From the NCBI GenBank assembly GCA_016868575.1, contig VGGL01000007.1:1-52961 (forward strand): a DNA stretch of 52,961 bases, given 5' to 3'. The position numbers and the translations under genes were made by a program. Source of the stretch: Bacteroidota bacterium. Its GTDB lineage: Bacteria > Bacteroidota > Bacteroidia > Bacteroidales > FEN-979. Below are positions 7,212 to 22,293 of the stretch, piece after piece (the stretch's first letter is position 1; each line of letters starts with the position of its first letter). Under the pieces are notes generated by a model, which was not told the origin of the DNA, ran no database searches, and saw only the letters and a list, made by a program, of their open reading frames with translations.

Positions 7212-7895
7212 TCAATACCTAATTTTTGCTGCACGCAGTATGTGTCTCTTTCCGGCGGGTCCTTTAAGTCGGGTGACGGTAAAGCCTGCTTCCCGCAAGG
7301 CTTGTTTGACAGATCCTTTCGATGAATAGGTAGTCAGTACACCCCCCGGATGCAGGGCATGAAAGAACTTTGCAAAGACCATTTCACTCCAGAGTTCGGG
7401 CTGCGTATCCGGAGAAAACGCATCGTGGAAGATCACATCAACACTTTCATCATCGAAACTTATCTCTTCCAGCCCGATTGGCCATTTCAGGAAATCGAAA
7501 TGCTCTGAAACTGAATTTCTTGTACTCCAGTCACACCGATGAAGTTGCAGAAAAACCTCAGAAGCCCGCTCCCAATTGATAATCTTGGAATAGTTGAGTT
7601 GTTGATAAACTTCAACAGGAACCGGATGAGGTTCGACTGTCAGATACCTTATCCGGAGGCCATATTCTTCCGCAAACCGGCAGGCCAACAGCGCATTGAG
7701 CCCCGTACCAAAACCTGTTTCAAAGACCACGATGTTGGTTTTACCCATATTCCTTGAATACTCCAGCCCTGCATGAATGAACACGTGCATCGATTCCTGA
7801 ATGGCTCCATTGATCGAATGATAATGTTCCTGAAACCTTTCTGAAAAGAGGGTATGCGATCCATCGGCGCTTATTTCCAAATTCAGCCCCATCAT
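7212..7895 (-). CDS. mnmD: tRNA (mnm5s2U34) methyltransferase, MnmD-like
   Basis: This is an SAM-dependent methyltransferase matching the methylating half of MnmC, here standing alone without the FAD oxidoreductase domain. It would carry out the last methylation of the mnm5s2U wobble base of tRNA. Visible motifs are the SAM loop FETGFGTGLN (58-67), the EPHP turn after beta-2 (89-92), and HDAFSPDTQPELW (157-169), characteristic of the MnmC family. Length is 227 residues. The E1 gene upstream ends 42 bp before this start. The gap contains a 32-bp motif shared with the lanC upstream region. Two adjacent ATGs (7895, 7892) are possible. Confidence 0.85.
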   Translation of the reverse strand: MMGLNLEISADGSHTLFSERFQEHYHSINGAIQESMHVFIHAGLEYSRNMGKTNIVVFETGFGTGLNALLACRFAEEYGLRIRYLTVEPHPVPVEVYQQLNYSKIINWERASEVFLQLHRCDWSTRNSVSEHFDFLKWPIGLEEISFDDESVDVIFHDAFSPDTQPELWSEMVFAKFFHALHPGGVLTTYSSKGSVKQALREAGFTVTRLKGPAGKRHILRAAKIRY

Positions 7896-7899
7896 TCTC

Positions 7900-7931
7900 T
7901 TAATCGGAAAAAAGGCAAAAGGTCATCTGTT
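7900..7931 (-). promoter_or_regulatory. 32-bp conserved element upstream of mnmD
   Basis: Read on the minus strand it starts AACAGATGACCTTTT and ends GATTAA. It matches 22262-22293, in front of lanC, at 29 of 32 positions in the same orientation. It ends four bases before the mnmD ATG and begins shortly after the E1 stop. Function is unknown; it could be a promoter, a leader RNA element or a short dispersed repeat. Confidence 0.6.
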
Positions 7932-14407: not shown

Positions 14408-14761
14408 TTAGAGTTCCCTGGAAGGATCCCAGAAGTGTTTTTCGAAGTTAACGATCTTATCGTCAATGACTTGTATTCCTTCGTTTGCTAAGAGTTCGCG
14501 CATGACGTCGGGGCCGCCAAAGTGGCGCTTCCCGGTGAGGGCACCATTGCGGTTTACAACCCTGTGAGCCGGAATGCTTTGCAACGCGTGATGCGAAGCG
14601 TTCATCGCCCAGCCGACCATCCGCGCAGATCCTTTGGTTCCCAGATATTCCGCAATAGCACCGTAGGAAGTTACCCGTCCGGGAGGGATCTGAACCACGA
14701 CCTGGTAGACCTTTTCGAAAAAGGAGATATCGCCGGTATGATCAATGTCCTTCATCCCCAT
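14408..14761 (-). CDS. alkyltransferase-like protein (MGMT fold, no active Cys)
   Basis: This 117-residue protein has the DNA-binding domain of O6-alkylguanine-DNA alkyltransferase: VTSYGAIAEYLG helix-turn-helix region (30-41), RMVGWAMNA (47-55) and LTGKRHFGG. The active-site PCHRV is PAHRV (64-68), with Ala65 replacing the acceptor cysteine. This defines the ATL family, which binds alkylated guanine and hands it to nucleotide excision repair instead of reversing the damage. Its start overlaps the end of the HlyD gene by 20 bp, so it is probably translated as the last gene of the lan operon. Whether this link is functional or accidental is unclear. Confidence 0.9.
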   Translation of the reverse strand: MGMKDIDHTGDISFFEKVYQVVVQIPPGRVTSYGAIAEYLGTKGSARMVGWAMNASHHALQSIPAHRVVNRNGALTGKRHFGGPDVMRELLANEGIQVIDDKIVNFEKHFWDPSREL

Positions 14762-16040
14762 CTTTCAAATGCCGGTGTAAAAATAATCTTATTGGCTGAA
14801 TGATCACTTCGGCCAGGGTTTGGTCATGGGTGATGATCTCAGCGGTCCCCTTCATTTCCGGTCTGGCAGGTAATTGATATCCATAACTGGTCTTCAGCCC
14901 GTCAGGAAGCGACAATCCAGCCAGGTAATGATCACCTGCCGGAACGAGGGACACATATTCCACTTTACCGGTCAGATATCCATAATCCCGGGCAGGGAAG
15001 TCATCGATCAGGATCCTGGCCCGTTGTCCTTGTTTTACCTTTCCGGATCCATACAAGGGGATCATTCCTCGGGCAATGAGTTGATCCTTCTTCCCCGGCG
15101 TGACAGTAAATATCTGCTCTCCCTGTGTGATCCGGCCTCCCTGGGGAGAGAAAGAGGTGCGGGAAAGGACCCCTTCGACCGGAGAGATCAGAACATACCT
15201 CTCCCGCCAGGTGCGAATCGCCGAGCACAGACTACGGTAATTCCCAACCAGTTTCCCCATTACACTGGTGTTTTCCTCTGAGATCACCGACTGTTCCCGG
15301 AGTATCATGCCATTAATCTCCTCCAGCCGCATCCCTGCGTCCTGGTAATCGGCACGGGCTTCCTCCAGTTTCAGCGACATTTTAACCTGCTCACTACGCC
15401 GCTTTTCCAGCTCTGATTCAGAAATGACTCCGCTGTCATGGAGTCCGGCATACCTTTCATATTCCTTTTTTGCCAGGGAGAGATCCTGCTCCATCAATGA
15501 AAGGCCGGAAGCTGCTGTTCGCTGATAGGTCATCAGGTTTTCCCGTTGTCTTGAAAGATGACCCATCACCCGTTTGTTCTTGTCAAGCGACGCGGAAAGG
15601 AGATAATCTTCAACCGCCTGGATAAAGTCAGAATACGGTTGCTGTACCTCCCCCAAACCATGGAAAACTGATGACCGGAAAGCATCGACATCAGCCGTTT
15701 GAATATTGGTTGGGGCTAAGGTATGCGCCAGGAGAAATGAATCGAGCTTACACACCTGGTTGAAGTCCGCAGGGTTTTCAATAAAGGCGATGATTTCACC
15801 TTTTGAGACCTGCCGTTCCTCCTCCCCGTAGATAAAACGGATCCTTCCGGTGGCCATCGTGTGAATGCCAACTGGCGGATCGGTAGATGTTATCGTCACC
15901 TGGCACCGGATTGTGCACGGATACCTGATCAGAAACCCGGAGGCGACGGTCAGAGCCAGAAATCCCATGACGACCAGAATCCCGGTGCGGGTGATCCATC
16001 CGGGCGGTTTTCCGATGAAATCATTAACTGGAATGTTCAT
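14742..16040 (-). CDS. HlyD-family membrane fusion protein of peptide exporter
   Basis: This is a periplasmic adaptor that would join the C39 ABC exporter to an outer-membrane channel. It has one N-terminal membrane helix (about 19-41), a short lipoyl-like half (GIHTMATGRIRFIYGEEERQ), a long alpha-helical hairpin with coiled-coil character (about 145-255) and a C-terminal beta domain (ISPVEGVLSRTSF, then QRARILIDDFPARDYG). Length of 432 residues is typical. The start is 8 bp after the exporter stop. No TolC-like gene lies nearby, so a shared outer-membrane channel is assumed. Confidence 0.85.
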   Translation of the reverse strand: MNIPVNDFIGKPPGWITRTGILVVMGFLALTVASGFLIRYPCTIRCQVTITSTDPPVGIHTMATGRIRFIYGEEERQVSKGEIIAFIENPADFNQVCKLDSFLLAHTLAPTNIQTADVDAFRSSVFHGLGEVQQPYSDFIQAVEDYLLSASLDKNKRVMGHLSRQRENLMTYQRTAASGLSLMEQDLSLAKKEYERYAGLHDSGVISESELEKRRSEQVKMSLKLEEARADYQDAGMRLEEINGMILREQSVISEENTSVMGKLVGNYRSLCSAIRTWRERYVLISPVEGVLSRTSFSPQGGRITQGEQIFTVTPGKKDQLIARGMIPLYGSGKVKQGQRARILIDDFPARDYGYLTGKVEYVSLVPAGDHYLAGLSLPDGLKTSYGYQLPARPEMKGTAEIITHDQTLAEVIIQPIRLFLHRHLKDGDEGH

Positions 16041-16048
16041 GTTGCAAG

Positions 16049-18268
16049 TTATTGTTGTTCCATAAATATCTGTTCTTTCACCAGGTGATAATAAAGTCCT
16101 TTTGAATCCAACAGTTCATGATGATTACCTGATTCTACAAGGCGCCCCTGATCAAGGACGATGATCTTACCGGCACGGATAACGGTGCTGAGCCGGTGGG
16201 CTGCAATGATAACCGTTTGCTTACTTTGTGCATTCACGATGCTTTCCATGATAATCCGTTCATTTTTTGTGTCCAGCGCATTGGTTGGCTCATCCAGAAA
16301 GAGGTACTGAGGCTTCTTATATAGCGCCCTGGCAATTAGCATTCGTTGCCGTTGTCCGGCACTGAGCGAGTGTCCGTTCACTCCCACCGGGGTCATGTCG
16401 GCCAGGGGAAGACGATCCACCACCTCCCTGAACGAAACCAGCCGGAGTACTTCGTCAAACCAGGCCTCGTCGTAGTATTCCTGCATGATGATATTCTCCC
16501 GGATGGTGTCGGCAAACAGGTACCCATCCTGCATCACAACACCGCATTGAGCCCGCCAGTGATCCAGGTCCATCTGGTTGAGAGGGGTCTTCCCGATCCG
16601 GATATTTCCATCGCCAGGCCTATAAAGTCCCAGCATCATGCGCAGCAAGGTGGTTTTTCCGCTTCCACTCTTACCTACGATGGCTAAGGTTTGATTTGGT
16701 GGTATCTCAAGGTTGATGCCCTTCAAAACAAAGTCATACGATGATGTTGGATATGAAAAACTGAGATTCTCCAGGCAGATTGGATGTTCTCCATCAACTT
16801 TAACGCTCCCCTCCTGCTGATCAGATTCTGTCTTCACATCCTGCATCTCTTTCATCCGGGTCCAGCTCAGCCTGGCGTCCTGCATCACCTGAAGGAATAC
16901 AGCCATCTGCTCAACCGGACTGTTGATCATGCCGAGGATGAAGGTGATGGCCAGCATCATTCCAAGTGTGATCTCCCCCTGGATGACCGCCATGGCCGCA
17001 AAAAAGATCACGGTAAGGTTTTTCACCTGGCTGATCAACACACTTCCCGATTGCTGATACTGCGCATTGACAAGGATTTGGATATTGTTCCTGAATATTC
17101 GGGCCTGCAGACTGGTCCATTTTCTGAATATTCCGGATTCCGATTGATTGAGCTTGATCTCGCCAACCCCATCGACGATCTGGATCAGTTGATCCTGATG
17201 GGCAGATAACAGGCCGAAACGTTGCCGGTCCAGCACCCGCCGCTTTTTCATGAACAGCACCATCCAGCCCAGTTGCAGGAGGGTAGCTGAAAAAAAGACC
17301 AGGAAAATCAGCGGACTGTAGAATAAAAGCACCAATCCAAGGATGAGGATGCTAAGCAAGCCGAACACAAAGCTGATCATGTAGTTCGTGATGAAATCTT
17401 CGATCCGCTTATGGTCACCAATGCGCTGAAGGATATCTCCACTCAGATGCCTTTCAAAGAAGGCGATGGGCATCCGGATCAACCGGAGCAGAAAATCCGA
17501 GAGGATGGACACATTGATCCGGGCGCTCAGGTAGAGCAGCATCCAGTTTCTCAGGTATTCAATAGCAACCTGGCTGACGACCAGGAGTATCTGCGCTAAC
17601 AGGATCATCAGGATGAAGCTGGTTTCCTGGTATTCGATCCCGAAATCCACAATGCTCTGTGTCAAAAGCGGGAAAGTCAACTGCAGAATGCTGCCCAGGA
17701 GAAGGGCGAAAATGATCCGGAACCAGTATTTTCGATATGGTAGAAAGTAAGTTGAAATCTTCCGGGGGTCATGGTCGATCTTTTTTCCATGAAGATTAGC
17801 GCTATTCATCGTGCCACCATCCAGTATGAGTGCAATGCCCTTCCCGCCGGTTCCCTCTTCCGGAAAAGAGACCCAGTGGCTCAGGAACTCATTGCGGGAA
17901 AGGTGTTGGATCCCGTTTTCAGGGTCCACAATCTGAAGCAGCTTTTTATCCGGTTGTTGAAGACTTCTCAGCGCGTGTTTTTGAGCGGTTGAAAAAACCA
18001 CGAAGTGGTTCTTGTTCCAGTGCAGTATACAAGGCCCATTCAATGAGATCAATTCTTCCAAAGAGAGGATCATGCCGGTGGCTATAAAGCCAAATTTCCC
18101 GGCCGATTCACGCATAGATTGCAACGAAACCCCTTGCCGGGAAATGTTTATCGCCTCCTGGATTTCAGCCATCGAAACAGCATGTCCATGATAGTTCATA
18201 ACCATCTTCAGGCAAGCCGCGCCGCAATCATTGGCATCAAATTGCGGTTGAAACTGGATTTTTTTCAT
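16049..18268 (-). CDS. lanT: peptidase-containing ABC exporter (C39, bacteriocin type)
   Basis: This is a bifunctional exporter that removes a double-glycine-type leader and pumps the mature peptide across the inner membrane. The N-terminal C39 peptidase has Cys15 (NDCGAACL), His88 (NKNHFVVF) and Asp115 (IVDPENG). The six-helix membrane domain covers about 160-440. The nucleotide-binding domain has GKSGSGKTTLL, LSAGQRQRM and YLFLDEPTNALD. All catalytic residues are present. An upstream in-frame ATG at 18298 exists, but C39 domains usually begin a few residues before the Cys block, so 18268 (MKKIQF) is chosen. Even so, the gene overlaps the 3' end of the LanB C-part by 32 bp, a sign of translational coupling. 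Confidence 0.92.
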   Translation of the reverse strand: MKKIQFQPQFDANDCGAACLKMVMNYHGHAVSMAEIQEAINISRQGVSLQSMRESAGKFGFIATGMILSLEELISLNGPCILHWNKNHFVVFSTAQKHALRSLQQPDKKLLQIVDPENGIQHLSRNEFLSHWVSFPEEGTGGKGIALILDGGTMNSANLHGKKIDHDPRKISTYFLPYRKYWFRIIFALLLGSILQLTFPLLTQSIVDFGIEYQETSFILMILLAQILLVVSQVAIEYLRNWMLLYLSARINVSILSDFLLRLIRMPIAFFERHLSGDILQRIGDHKRIEDFITNYMISFVFGLLSILILGLVLLFYSPLIFLVFFSATLLQLGWMVLFMKKRRVLDRQRFGLLSAHQDQLIQIVDGVGEIKLNQSESGIFRKWTSLQARIFRNNIQILVNAQYQQSGSVLISQVKNLTVIFFAAMAVIQGEITLGMMLAITFILGMINSPVEQMAVFLQVMQDARLSWTRMKEMQDVKTESDQQEGSVKVDGEHPICLENLSFSYPTSSYDFVLKGINLEIPPNQTLAIVGKSGSGKTTLLRMMLGLYRPGDGNIRIGKTPLNQMDLDHWRAQCGVVMQDGYLFADTIRENIIMQEYYDEAWFDEVLRLVSFREVVDRLPLADMTPVGVNGHSLSAGQRQRMLIARALYKKPQYLFLDEPTNALDTKNERIIMESIVNAQSKQTVIIAAHRLSTVIRAGKIIVLDQGRLVESGNHHELLDSKGLYYHLVKEQIFMEQQ

Positions 18269-19127
18269 GCTGAGGGGTATTTGATTGATGATGAGCATTG
18301 GCTGAACGATAATACCTGAAAAGCAACTCCATGGCCATCCATTCCAGCAGGCGCTGATGATCGGGGAATAGCCGGTTGAAACGAAGATGAAAAATCCGGA
18401 TCAAGACTTCTTGCTGATCCTTGTACCAGCCCCTGCAAGCCCGAATATTTCTGATTTCATTCGCCATATCGTGGTTTCTGCCGGTCAATGACAGTCCTGG
18501 GTTATATGGACCTGCCCCGGATAAAACCAAATCCATGTTATTCCTGATCTCACGGAATTTTTTGTCAAGACTAACTTTCTTTTGCTGATCGTGGTTGAAT
18601 TCTCTCCGGTACCGCTCCGAAACTTCCCGGTAATAATCAACCCTGTCGCAATGCAAATGAAAAAACAGGCCCACCAGCTCATCGACCAGGGCAAGTGAAA
18701 TAAGCCAACGGGACTCCAAATCTCGGGACAAATCTGATGTGAGCGCTTCAAGTACGCTTTCGCTGTCAATATGGAATAGCCTCTCAAACAGGTGAAGATG
18801 AACCTTTCCGTACATTCGATGTTCCGGGCGATAGGTTAATACATCCATTTTCCAAATCCTGTGGTCAATCAGTAAAAGGTTGGCTGTGGACTGTATCCTG
18901 GCCAGGACCAGCGCTGGATTAACACCAGCTGTCACATTCAGCCTTATCCTCAGATGAGGTTCCGGATCCCGGTAACGGATGAAAAACCACTGGCGCAGCC
19001 ATCCTTCACCAAGCATCGATGCGATTTCAGGGTAACACATCTCCACGAGCCATCTTTCTAAAGTTTTACAACCTCCGTAAACCTTGAAATAAACCCAGTT
19101 GCGATGATATGGAATAGCTGATTTCAT
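18237..19127 (-). CDS. lanB: lantibiotic dehydratase C-terminal (glutamate elimination) domain protein, split LanB
   Basis: This is the free-standing elimination domain of a class I lanthipeptide dehydratase, the SpaB C-terminal or thiopeptide-type family. It would remove glutamate from glutamylated Ser/Thr to give dehydroalanine or dehydrobutyrine. Recognisable elements are the N-terminal WVYFKVYGG, the FFIRYRDPEPHLRIRL strand pair (48-63) and TYRPEHRMYGK, where most homologues have an RYGG-type ending. Near the C-terminus is FHLRFNRLF. The start overlaps the lanB N-part stop by 4 bp (ATGA). In full-length LanB the two domains are fused; separate genes are typical of Bacteroidota systems such as the pinensin cluster, as I recall it. 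Confidence 0.85.
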   Translation of the reverse strand: MKSAIPYHRNWVYFKVYGGCKTLERWLVEMCYPEIASMLGEGWLRQWFFIRYRDPEPHLRIRLNVTAGVNPALVLARIQSTANLLLIDHRIWKMDVLTYRPEHRMYGKVHLHLFERLFHIDSESVLEALTSDLSRDLESRWLISLALVDELVGLFFHLHCDRVDYYREVSERYRREFNHDQQKKVSLDKKFREIRNNMDLVLSGAGPYNPGLSLTGRNHDMANEIRNIRACRGWYKDQQEVLIRIFHLRFNRLFPDHQRLLEWMAMELLFRYYRSANAHHQSNTPQHEKNPVSTAI

Positions 19128-21088
19128 CTTTTTACAAAGGAAATGATGATCTGATTTGCATAGCCATTCTGTCCATCGGTGACCTGCTGTGGTTCGCGGC
19201 AGAGAAGCGATTCATGGACTGTGACTTCATCCTTGTCAGAAATTTCTGCAGCCAGGATTTTTCGACAAGCTGCATTTTTAAGGTTCAACAGCAGTTCCTG
19301 GTCGCCAAACTGGTAAACAACCTGATCAGGCAGGTCATGCCGAAACAACCATTGTTTGACTTGCCATGGATTGCCACTTTTTCCAAGGATTTGCTTTAGG
19401 TTCGTCAATTTCTCCCCCTGAAAAATCCAGGTGGCAGGCAACAGGATGACCTTGCCGAGACTGATCCTCGGGATCATCTCTAATCGCTGAAAAATGAGCT
19501 GTTCCGGCAATCCAAACCAGGCATCGAAATCCTGAAACTGCAAATCCCCTAAAAAGCGAAACAGTGGCAGCGGATGAAGAAGATAGTTGTAGGCAGATGT
19601 AAACCGTGGGATAACACCTTTTCCCGTTTTTTTAGAAAAAAGTTTCAGCCTGCCTTTCTCCTCTGATAAATAAAGATCATACGCAGGAATGATGTGTTTC
19701 CCATCCGCTCTATATGGCCGTGTCAGATGGATCTCGTGATCCCTTAACGATACTGGCGGGAGAAGCTGATCAATCCCTTCAAAAAGGGGAGGGATCACCT
19801 CAGCTACGATCGCATCAGGACAGGACTGTTTCTCGCGTGAAACGATCTGCCGGATCATTTGGTCAACCTCTTGATCCGTGCCGGAAAACCGGGAATAGAG
19901 GTTTGCGGCTGATGATCCGCCAAAAGGATGCAGACGGATGTGATCACCGGTAAGCTCGATGACTACTGAAAATGTCGGGGGAAGTTTCCCCGCATGAAAG
20001 CTGTTGTCAATACAATAATCATCTGAAAGGGCAACCTGCCTAGAACCCTTTCGGATGGCCTTTCCAATTTCCCTGACGAGTTTTTCAAGATGGTCAGGAA
20101 CAGTTACAGGCTCTGGTTTCCCTAGATTATATCCAGGATGAAAGATCTCTTTGGGGATTAGGTTCTCTAGAAATGCCGGTTCCGGGCCATAGGAAATTCC
20201 TGCTTCCGGGTCAACAGCAGTCAGCAGTGGAACCGGACCTTTCCCATACCTGGCGCAGAATCTCTTGCTGAATTGTTTCAGCCGCATCCCGGGTTGATTC
20301 TCTGCAAAGCCCGAAAGGAAGGTAATGGCACGAGTTAGATCCTGCAAGATGGAATGATCAAGGGTACACGCTGACATTTCCCGTAACATCGAAGGAATGT
20401 GATTTCCGGTATGGTTGTCACTCCTCCCTTCAAAAAGAATCTGATGATCCACCAGTGATTGAAGAAACTGCTCCTTCTCTTTGGCACATAACGCAAATGG
20501 CGTCAATGATCTCTTCAATGTTCCCATGGTTTTTCGATGTGCCGGCATATCAACAATCGCATCGATGGCTTCATTCCGACAAACCTCACTCACCTGGAAA
20601 GCACCATGATGGCCATCCTGCTCATAGTAGCGGTAGCAATCAGCGTATCTTTCCACCGATCCATTCAGGTAAAAACAGCGACTTCCCGATTTCAACTGCG
20701 AGGGCACTGCGGGCACTTTCATTGTTCTGCCTTTTCCCAGGATGATCGAGGTATTATCAAAAATCCTCCCGGTGCTGATCCCTGCAAACATCCCGAAAGG
20801 GGTACACCGGGTCGACATCCTGATCAGGTATTTCTGAAAGGTTAGAAGGATCTTGCTCAATTCTTTTTCCTGGTAAGCACTCCGGTTTTCAAGAAAGCGC
20901 CTGATTTCCAAAGCAAAAGAAGGTGTTGCCAGGCTGATGGGTTCCAGGATGATTGGATCATTTAACAGGGATAGAAGATCTTTCCGGTCAATTTCTTCTT
21001 TTCCAAATAGTTTGTTGAAAGTTGAAATGGATAGCAATGGGGTCCGAAGGATAAATGAAGAGAGATAGGTATATGGCAAATTCTTCAT
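19124..21088 (-). CDS. lanB: lantibiotic dehydratase N-terminal (glutamylation) domain protein, split LanB
   Basis: This is the tRNA-Glu-dependent glutamylation half of a class I lanthipeptide dehydratase. It would activate Ser/Thr of a precursor peptide by transferring glutamate from glutamyl-tRNA. The diagnostic RCTPFGMFAG motif lies near residue 96, with the preceding YLIRMSTR helix. Length is 654 residues and it stops before the elimination domain, which is the next gene. It starts 6 bp after the lanC stop. Overall similarity to characterised LanB proteins cannot be judged here, but motif, length and neighbours agree. Precursor specificity is unknown. Confidence 0.88.
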   Translation of the reverse strand: MKNLPYTYLSSFILRTPLLSISTFNKLFGKEEIDRKDLLSLLNDPIILEPISLATPSFALEIRRFLENRSAYQEKELSKILLTFQKYLIRMSTRCTPFGMFAGISTGRIFDNTSIILGKGRTMKVPAVPSQLKSGSRCFYLNGSVERYADCYRYYEQDGHHGAFQVSEVCRNEAIDAIVDMPAHRKTMGTLKRSLTPFALCAKEKEQFLQSLVDHQILFEGRSDNHTGNHIPSMLREMSACTLDHSILQDLTRAITFLSGFAENQPGMRLKQFSKRFCARYGKGPVPLLTAVDPEAGISYGPEPAFLENLIPKEIFHPGYNLGKPEPVTVPDHLEKLVREIGKAIRKGSRQVALSDDYCIDNSFHAGKLPPTFSVVIELTGDHIRLHPFGGSSAANLYSRFSGTDQEVDQMIRQIVSREKQSCPDAIVAEVIPPLFEGIDQLLPPVSLRDHEIHLTRPYRADGKHIIPAYDLYLSEEKGRLKLFSKKTGKGVIPRFTSAYNYLLHPLPLFRFLGDLQFQDFDAWFGLPEQLIFQRLEMIPRISLGKVILLPATWIFQGEKLTNLKQILGKSGNPWQVKQWLFRHDLPDQVVYQFGDQELLLNLKNAACRKILAAEISDKDEVTVHESLLCREPQQVTDGQNGYANQIIISFVKR

Positions 21089-21094
21089 GCCTTA

Positions 21095-22234
21095 TCAGCT
21101 TAAAAAGAAACACTCGTCCCAATCAGGAATGACAGGGCCGGTAGCCGCAAGCAAAGTCAGCCCTATCCCTGCTTTTCCTTCCAGCAGGGAAAGATCTTTC
21201 GTTTGTTTGAGCATCTCAAGTGATTGTTGTATCCAGAATAAACAGGCCTTCTGGAGTTCGGGGTTTCCTGTTTCCTGATACCCTTTCAGGAAGAGATATG
21301 CAACGCCCATGCGGCCATGACAGAATCCTGTCGCTGAAATTCCCGTTTCTTCAGGTGTTCTTCTTTGGGCTGCATGAAGAAATATCCGGATAGCATGATC
21401 TCTCCAGGTCCGGTCATTCAGGACAAACGACGCCCACAGGAATGCATGGGCAATGCCCAGGTCTCCATAACACCATGCCAGACGGCTGGGTAAATCCCTG
21501 TGTTCCTGATCCAGCCGGCCGGGGAATAATGACGGTTTCTCCGATTTGAACTCAAAATGGAGGATTTTTCTTGCCAACAGGGCTATCAGCCGGGATGTTT
21601 CTTGCTTCAGTAGATGCAAACCGGCAATTTTGCAAAGAAAAAGAAGGTTCCCCGTTAGTCCATGAGCCAGACTCAGATCTTCAACCTGACCGGCAGCTGA
21701 TGAAATCTTGTTTTCAATAACAGGAAAGACATGATCTTTCAGCAATATTTCTGTTTCGGCAACGATCTGGGATCTACCATTCTTCCTTTCCCTGCAGAGG
21801 ACACTCCAGAAAAACCCGAAGGCTCCATGAAGCAAATCAACATTTCCAGCTTGGAGATATTCTTTTCCTTGTTCAAGAAGTGCCTGTTCATAATAGGAGA
21901 TATCCTCATCTCTGATAGAACATACCCCATACTTCTCACACTTCCTTATCAGCCAGAGGATGCCGCCGAGCCCGTTGGCAAAAGACCACCCGACATCACC
22001 ATCATTGACCCGGTTGGTGATGAACTCAAGCTTCTGTTTAATCACCGGCAACAAGGCATCATCATGCACGGAAAGGTAAAGGCAGAGGAGGTACAGGACA
22101 CTGCCGGCTTCACCACTGTATAAACCGGGTTGTTCCGACAATGTACCGCTCGTCAGGTCTTGTTCGACCTTCCGGACTACCTCCCCCACCAAACCAACCA
22201 AAACCTCATCATGGATGATGTTTGGTGCTGTCAT
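21095..22234 (-). CDS. lanC: lanthionine synthetase C-like cyclase (LanC)
   Basis: This zinc enzyme would add cysteine thiols to dehydroamino acids and so close lanthionine rings. The three zinc ligands are visible: Cys255 in WCYGDLG and Cys305-His306 in GFCHGRMG. A catalytic-type His191 lies in LAHGLTG. Repeated G-x-x-G helical hairpins (LYSGEAGSVLYLL, NGLGGILWL, LHGAFGFFW, LEGKAGIGLTLL) give the alpha-toroid. Length is 379 residues. It is the first gene of the lan operon; the 32-bp element at 22262-22293 lies just upstream and no TAnnTTTG box is evident, so transcription may start there or continue from merR. Confidence 0.92.
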   Translation of the reverse strand: MTAPNIIHDEVLVGLVGEVVRKVEQDLTSGTLSEQPGLYSGEAGSVLYLLCLYLSVHDDALLPVIKQKLEFITNRVNDGDVGWSFANGLGGILWLIRKCEKYGVCSIRDEDISYYEQALLEQGKEYLQAGNVDLLHGAFGFFWSVLCRERKNGRSQIVAETEILLKDHVFPVIENKISSAAGQVEDLSLAHGLTGNLLFLCKIAGLHLLKQETSRLIALLARKILHFEFKSEKPSLFPGRLDQEHRDLPSRLAWCYGDLGIAHAFLWASFVLNDRTWRDHAIRIFLHAAQRRTPEETGISATGFCHGRMGVAYLFLKGYQETGNPELQKACLFWIQQSLEMLKQTKDLSLLEGKAGIGLTLLAATGPVIPDWDECFFLS

Positions 22235-22261
22235 GAGAACACTCAGATTAACCTATATGGT

Positions 22262-22293
22262 TTAATCCGAAAAAACGAAAAAGGTCATCTGTT
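22262..22293 (-). promoter_or_regulatory. 32-bp conserved element upstream of lanC
   Basis: This matches the element at 7900-7931 at 29 of 32 positions in the same orientation. It lies between the merR stop (16 bp away) and the lanC ATG (27 bp away). On the minus strand it begins AACAGATGACCTTTTTCG and ends GATTAA. Confidence 0.6.

Follow-up and report, generated by a model that had tools for sequence, protein, structure and literature searches.

A split-LanB class I lanthipeptide operon in a Bacteroidales draft genome with a likely precursor on another contig and a putative promoter element shared with natural-transformation genes

Class I lanthipeptide systems of the Bacteroidetes are described with LanC, a split LanB, a C39 protease and precursors whose leader follows the LxLxKx5L-GG type (PMC7268733; NF038153). 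The pinensin cluster also has a split LanB. Precursors encoded away from their synthetase are known from the prochlorosins, which are class II lanthipeptides made by ProcM. A tie between a bacteriocin and transformation genes, formed by the alternative sigma factor SigX and a promoter box, is described for Streptococcus mutans (PMC4497675). Natural transformation of Riemerella anatipestifer requires comEC, dprA, comF, recA, and a helix-hairpin-helix protein, and is strongly impaired in YifB/ComM mutants (PMC8459023).

The locus analyzed here lies on a contig of 52,961 nucleotides (VGGL01000007.1, C7), referred to as the window, from a draft genome of the Bacteroidales family FEN-979 (GCA_016868575.1; 2.84 Mb, 224 contigs, 94% complete, 4% contaminated). 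It shares LanC, split LanB, C39 protease, and leader type with the Bacteroidetes class I systems, but the likely precursor lies on another contig. Prochlorosin precursors can likewise be unlinked, yet they belong to class II systems in which many precursors are served by one tolerant enzyme, whereas one precursor was found for the class I enzymes here. As in S. mutans, an alternative sigma factor and a promoter box appear to connect the peptide with transformation genes; however, the phylum and the sigma protein are different, and SigX works via the regulator ComE, while lanC and lanA are here directly preceded by the box. The regulon described below has comEC, dprA, comF, a helix-hairpin-helix protein, and YifB/ComM in common with R. 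anatipestifer; the main text of that study contains neither “sigma” nor “promoter”, so that regulation could not be compared. Lanthipeptides encoded close to competence genes are the subject of a study from 2025, which covers class II systems and whose main text contains no word starting with “bacteroid” (PMC12715929); the text of a 2025 review of natural transformation lacks such words as well (PMC12236230). The open-access literature searched, with partial coverage, described no competence sigma factor in Bacteroidota and no lanthipeptide under the control of one. The enzymes are thus of a known kind, and the combination of a trans-encoded precursor with a competence-type regulon was not met in that literature. 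The reading considered likely, with a probability of roughly 0.7 and inferred from sequence alone, is that a competence sigma factor transcribes natural-transformation genes together with those of a class I lanthipeptide whose precursor is encoded in trans.

The lan genes form a same-strand run from 14408 to 22234 with the following features:

21095..22234, minus strand: lanC, lanthionine cyclase (PF05147 LANC_like, 7.4e-37; matches to 8byk and to NisC, 2g02)
19124..21088, minus strand: N-terminal (glutamylation) subunit of the split LanB (PF04738 Lant_dehydr_N, 1.4e-71; matches to 9g04, 5ehk, and NisB)
18237..19127, minus strand: C-terminal (elimination) subunit of LanB (PF14028 Lant_dehydr_C, 4.8e-45; TIGR03891, 3.8e-43; match to NisB)
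16049..18298, probable start at 18268, minus strand: C39 peptidase-ABC exporter (PF03412 Peptidase_C39, 1.8e-27; PF00664 ABC_membrane; PF00005 ABC_tran)
14742..16040, minus strand: HlyD-type adaptor (PF13437 HlyD_3, 2.2e-8; TIGR01843, 3.1e-25, under its cut-off)
14408..14761, minus strand: alkyltransferase-like gene with an MGMT DNA-binding domain (PF01035, 5.8e-26), the last gene of the run

Pfam matches of all five lan operon proteins exceeded the Pfam cut-offs, and the exporter matched the bacteriocin transporter 4ry2 over residues 12-742 (E 2.3e-81). The match 5ehk is a lantibiotic dehydratase. NCBIfam was less telling: TIGR03891 was above its cut-off for the C-terminal LanB subunit, the N-terminal subunit had no match, and only matches below the cut-offs were obtained for LanC (LanM, LanL, and LanKC models), the exporter, and HlyD. 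LanC and the N-terminal LanB gene are separated by 6 bp, the two LanB genes overlap by 4 bp, the exporter overlaps the C-terminal LanB gene by 32 bp if read from 18268, and 8 bp lie between exporter and HlyD genes. The zinc ligands C255, C305, and H306 of LanC are present, as are the catalytic residues C15, H88, and D115 of the C39 domain (numbered from the ATG at 18268). The N-terminal LanB subunit carries RTPL (R15) and TRCTPFG, and the C-terminal subunit carries RYRDPEPHLRIR. The LanB dehydratase and stand-alone LanC expected of a class I system are both present, with LanB split into two genes. One LanC-like protein and one N-terminal LanB protein were found in the whole genome. No receptor or two-component gene was detected with Pfam in the same-strand run, and no immunity gene was identified for the system. 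An earlier note, made without database searches, had listed the same five lan genes on the minus strand, with a 4-bp overlap of the LanB genes, other gaps of at most 8 bp or overlaps, and intact catalytic residues; all of this was confirmed. Genes and residues are thus seen directly, and the enzymology is inferred from protein families.

The alkyltransferase-like gene was missing from that earlier list. It is of DNA repair type, overlaps the HlyD gene by 20 bp, and encodes PAHRVV at the position where active alkyltransferases have PCHRVV. Co-transcription with the lan genes is possible, and no place in the lanthipeptide system is assigned to it.

No precursor gene was found clustered with lanB and lanC, an arrangement that is usual and not strictly defining. 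The window holds 615 open reading frames (ORFs) of 25-130 aa, none of which matches either of two class I GG-leader patterns, and the gaps flanking the operon measure 74 and 94 bp. A precursor within or beside the operon was therefore rejected, as the earlier note had claimed. The profile search of the whole genome with NF038153 (lant_leader_L1a) gave a single match over the cut-off, at 14824-14916 on the minus strand of contig C45 (E 8.7e-7). The corresponding ORF at C45:14749-14916, the candidate lanA, encodes 55 aa and reached 1.3e-7 and 31.6 bits against NF038153 in hmmscan (cut-off 22). Its protein starts with MKTKKRPIRLELKKEAIVRLTTEQMSKVYGG, followed by GEGGNQTRGVISIEACHQFKTIKC. The leader is of the LxLxKx5L type ending in GG, a type known for many Bacteroidetes class I precursors and often accompanied by a C39 protease in the cluster (PMC7268733). 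Its residues L20, M25, V28, G30, and G31 place L, M, and V at -12, -7, and -4 relative to Gly31, which is the usual C39 spacing. The core holds SxxxC and TxxC, with T38, S43, T52, C47, and C55. With a class I leader and a Ser/Thr/Cys core, the ORF meets the description of a class I precursor, and it is the likely substrate of the lan operon, as inferred from sequence alone; the leader itself is observed, and modification, export, and antimicrobial action of the peptide are inferred.

Contig C45 resembles the window in composition, with a tetranucleotide correlation of 0.88 and a GC content of 0.482 compared to 0.475. Pieces of 9-12 kb from five other contigs of the same genome reached only 0.63-0.72, and pieces of other genomes 0.36-0.66. 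The expectations of a GG-type leader and of a remote precursor were thus borne out, the substrate role remaining an inference. That several dispersed precursors might be served was so far not supported: there was one NF038153 match over the cut-off, and no second copy of the 55-aa protein was found in the genome, other leader families lying outside the genome-wide search. A match to NF038153 on C112 below the threshold (13.2 bits, E 0.46) was rejected as a 55-aa frame overlapping an ORF of 344 aa.

The gene downstream of lanA matches endonuclease/exonuclease/phosphatase and secretion-tail families, in each case under the Pfam cut-off, and has possible starts at a TTG 20 nt and an ATG 83 nt past the lanA stop. 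Two distinct, probably secreted genes of the endonuclease/exonuclease/phosphatase type occur in or beside the regulon described below (L053:13391-14728 on C45 and L056:3333-4409 on C138), and both are candidates for extracellular DNA processing.

A search for short ORFs behind the element near 22262 had been proposed in the earlier note, and the candidate lanA on C45 carries the core of this element exactly. Upstream of both lanC and lanA stands TTTTTCGGATTAAAC, preceded by an ACCTTTT half, which gives the common element ACCTTTT-N9-CGGATTAA. Two copies occur in the window:

22260..22292, minus strand: putative promoter element for a sigma factor at the lan operon (core of 24 bases at 22262-22285), ending 25 bp before the lanC ATG
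7898..7930, minus strand: second copy, before an mnmD-like gene at 7212-7895 (named by eye)

The mnmD-like gene has ATG codons just 2 and 5 nt past its element, suggesting a leaderless transcript. The core is identical at lanC and lanA; the lanA start lies 79 nt past it, farther than at most sites, and the lanA site has 3 mismatches to the extended 30-base form. As a 15-mer, the element occurred 5 times exactly and 7 times with at most one mismatch in the genome, compared to one site with at most one mismatch for the reversed control. Its 33-base form with up to 3 mismatches had 11 sites and its 30-base form 19, with no control site in either case. The extended 32-base form was nearly private, with 12 sites in this genome and one across 42 other genomes of the family. 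The general motif ACYTTTTN9CSGATTAA occurred at 21 sites in this genome (G000), including lanC and lanA, with none for the reversed pattern; six genomes of six genera in the family held 80 sites and one reversed control site. When 79 distinct sites of these 80 were taken for a spacing test, 43 lay at most 40 nt before an ATG ORF of at least 60 aa, compared to 4 when the direction was mirrored and to 14.8% for positions chosen at random. For 14 of the 79, no ATG ORF of 60 aa was present within 150 nt.

A one-mismatch site on C29 was rejected, having neither the upstream half nor a close downstream ORF. ORFs of 69 aa (C47) and 147 aa (C9) downstream of the element were rejected as precursors as no class I GG leader was recognized by eye.

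The element also belongs to the regulon of a sigma factor and natural-transformation genes, which the earlier note had missed. One target is a sigma-factor gene on C38 with Sigma70 region 2 (PF04542, 9.4e-10), the only Sigma70 region matched in Pfam at a threshold of 0.01; region 4 had no match at that threshold, and the C-terminal half of the protein is conserved among 16 homologues. Homologues occurred in 42 of 43 family genomes, this one included. The motif was found upstream of 28 of the 30 best-scoring homologues, exactly in 19 and in a relaxed form in 9, with no hit for the reversed control pattern; the 30 loci were drawn from the 42 genomes and all scored by pattern, among them three that had yielded no ORF, the relaxed form was defined after the sequences had been viewed, and two loci were scored only by a scan of the whole locus. 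Because the motif precedes so many of its homologues, the gene is inferred to be autoregulated, without binding data. A wider search, in which 60 of 80 loci were examined, showed one exact and 7 relaxed motifs, all in the closest relatives, and variants were present in close relatives from named Bacteroidales records, which include a Lentimicrobium MAG. That the sigma factor reads the element remains an inference.

By eye, GTTATTAACA or GTTATCAACA was found directly before the motif in 17 of 26 readable upstream regions of sigma homologues (L103-L128), the site of this genome lacking it. This sequence resembles a DnaA box, and it is possible that it serves as an input triggering the regulon.

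Genes downstream of the motif were collected from six family genomes, part of them identified with Pfam and the others by eye (without a Pfam scan: L131, L133, L134, L144, L147, L151, L163, L186, L189, prs, and mnmD). comEC followed the motif in three of the six (G021, G028, and G033) and comM in four (G000, G007, G033, and G036), and the GTG start of dprA in G000 lies 12 nt past it. radC occurred behind the motif in four genomes, ssb and topA in three each, a recJ-like gene in two, and YraN and a ComF-like gene (L192; 26.2 bits, Pfam cut-off 26.3) in one each. A helix-hairpin-helix protein gene follows an outer-membrane-type gene behind the motif in G000, a similar outer-membrane-type gene was seen by eye in three other genomes, and a second helix-hairpin-helix gene follows the motif in G000. 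None of the genes seen behind the 21 exact sites of G000 was comEC, which was not itself searched for in that genome. DNA-uptake and processing genes thus share one promoter element across the six genomes, although not each gene in each genome; its occurrence upstream of transformation genes in the family is observed, and that the regulon represents competence is inferred. Further targets (lamin-tail, ORF6N, GIY-YIG, 23S-IVP, transposase-like, prs, and mnmD) are not explained by the competence reading.

Genes of the ORF6N, GIY-YIG, and 23S-IVP/four-helix-bundle types recur behind the motif in several genomes (L092, L097, L100, L157, L165, L179, L194, and L196, most by eye), as if small mobile genes exploited the promoter.

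Among 392 other genomes searched in the order, 27 had a match to the N-terminal LanB domain. Three of these (G101, G215, and G253) were left out due to short, weak matches, and NF038153 matched in 13 of the remaining 24, in 12 of them over the cut-off. In eight genomes (G122, G131, G132, G135, G170, G208, G256, and, below the cut-off, G174) LanB and the match share a contig, and in five (G350, G282, G094, G076, and G227) the match was confined to another contig, some of these contigs being very short. A leader pattern revealed two more genomes with a local precursor, G124 and G227. Of the 14 genomes in which a precursor was detected, 10 thus had it locally, and 10 genomes yielded none. Unlinked precursors may therefore exist elsewhere too, with G350 as the best candidate. 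Near one LanB in each of G124 and G227, arrays of 6 and 10 short ORFs (L212 and L215) had near-identical class I leaders and diverse cores. The N-terminal LanB protein studied here had no counterpart in the 42 other family genomes and no close relative in a wider set of genome contigs. The motif was absent from all 24 lan loci of other families, and a looser pattern from 322 kb of such loci, partly overlapping the 24. The lan link consequently rests on one genome.

In the proposed mechanism, the C38 sigma factor of competent cells would transcribe its own gene, the DNA-uptake genes, the lan operon, and lanA, the last two being united by a common promoter in place of linkage. That the peptide would be made in competent cells follows from the element at the lan operon and lanA, as the predicted targets of the sigma factor include natural-transformation genes. 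The 55-aa precursor would be dehydrated by the split LanB and cyclized by LanC, with S43-C47 and T52-C55 as the likely rings, these thioether bridges being inferred. The C39 domain would cut after Gly31, and the ABC/HlyD pair would export a product of 24 residues. The peptide would then most likely act on neighbours, most simply by lysing them, and the released DNA would be taken up. The nuclease-like gene after lanA fits such a role in DNA release. This purpose is assigned by analogy with S. mutans (PMC4497675).

Three other readings were weighed. The element may be recognized by a sigma factor for general DNA metabolism or stress instead of marking a competence state, the lan genes being merely some of many targets and the peptide untied to DNA uptake. 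This remains possible, as prs, mnmD, 23S-IVP, ORF6N, GIY-YIG, and transposase-like targets (several by eye) would suit it, ssb, radC, topA, and recJ serve general repair as well, and comEC of G000 was not seen with the motif. Against it, the motif stands at comEC in three and at comM in four of six genomes, and at dprA, ComF-like, and helix-hairpin-helix genes; transformation of R. anatipestifer requires comEC, dprA, comF, and a helix-hairpin-helix protein and is strongly impaired by the loss of YifB/ComM (PMC8459023). A signalling role is also conceivable, in which a lanthipeptide pheromone rather than a toxin would announce the competent state to neighbours. This would agree with the placing of one short, probably two-ringed peptide under a regulatory sigma factor, and lanthipeptides can have signalling activity (PMC12715929); however, the same-strand run lacks a receptor or two-component gene, and the nuclease-like gene after lanA suits DNA release better.

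It is less probable, and in our view unlikely, that the C45 ORF is a relic and the operon serves a precursor from a different leader family that escaped detection, being lost to assembly gaps or encoded elsewhere. The draft is 94% complete, the genome-wide leader search covered NF038153 only, and in the other genomes of the order that have LanB, such precursors as were detected were more often local. Yet the genome has one LanC-like protein, one N-terminal LanB protein, and one leader match over the cut-off, the exact core element is common to lanC and lanA, and the leader and ring-forming residues of the C45 ORF are intact. Against the main reading, competence-linked production of a trans-encoded lanthipeptide, stands that the lan link comes from a single draft of 224 contigs and that no transcription, peptide, or transformation data exist.

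The regulation of natural transformation in Bacteroidota is largely undescribed, as far as the literature searched shows, and with a named sigma gene, a promoter core, and a target list, the main reading is directly testable. A common promoter also offers a route to unlinked RiPP precursors missed by cluster-based mining. A bolder reading, towards which we lean only slightly, is that the family-conserved sigma factor is a master regulator of natural transformation, and that it recruited a trans-encoded class I lanthipeptide and a secreted nuclease in this lineage, as a Gram-negative Bacteroidota counterpart of streptococcal competence-coupled killing. If true, attack on neighbours would be linked to DNA uptake in these bacteria, and the idea of killing combined with DNA uptake would be extended to another phylum.
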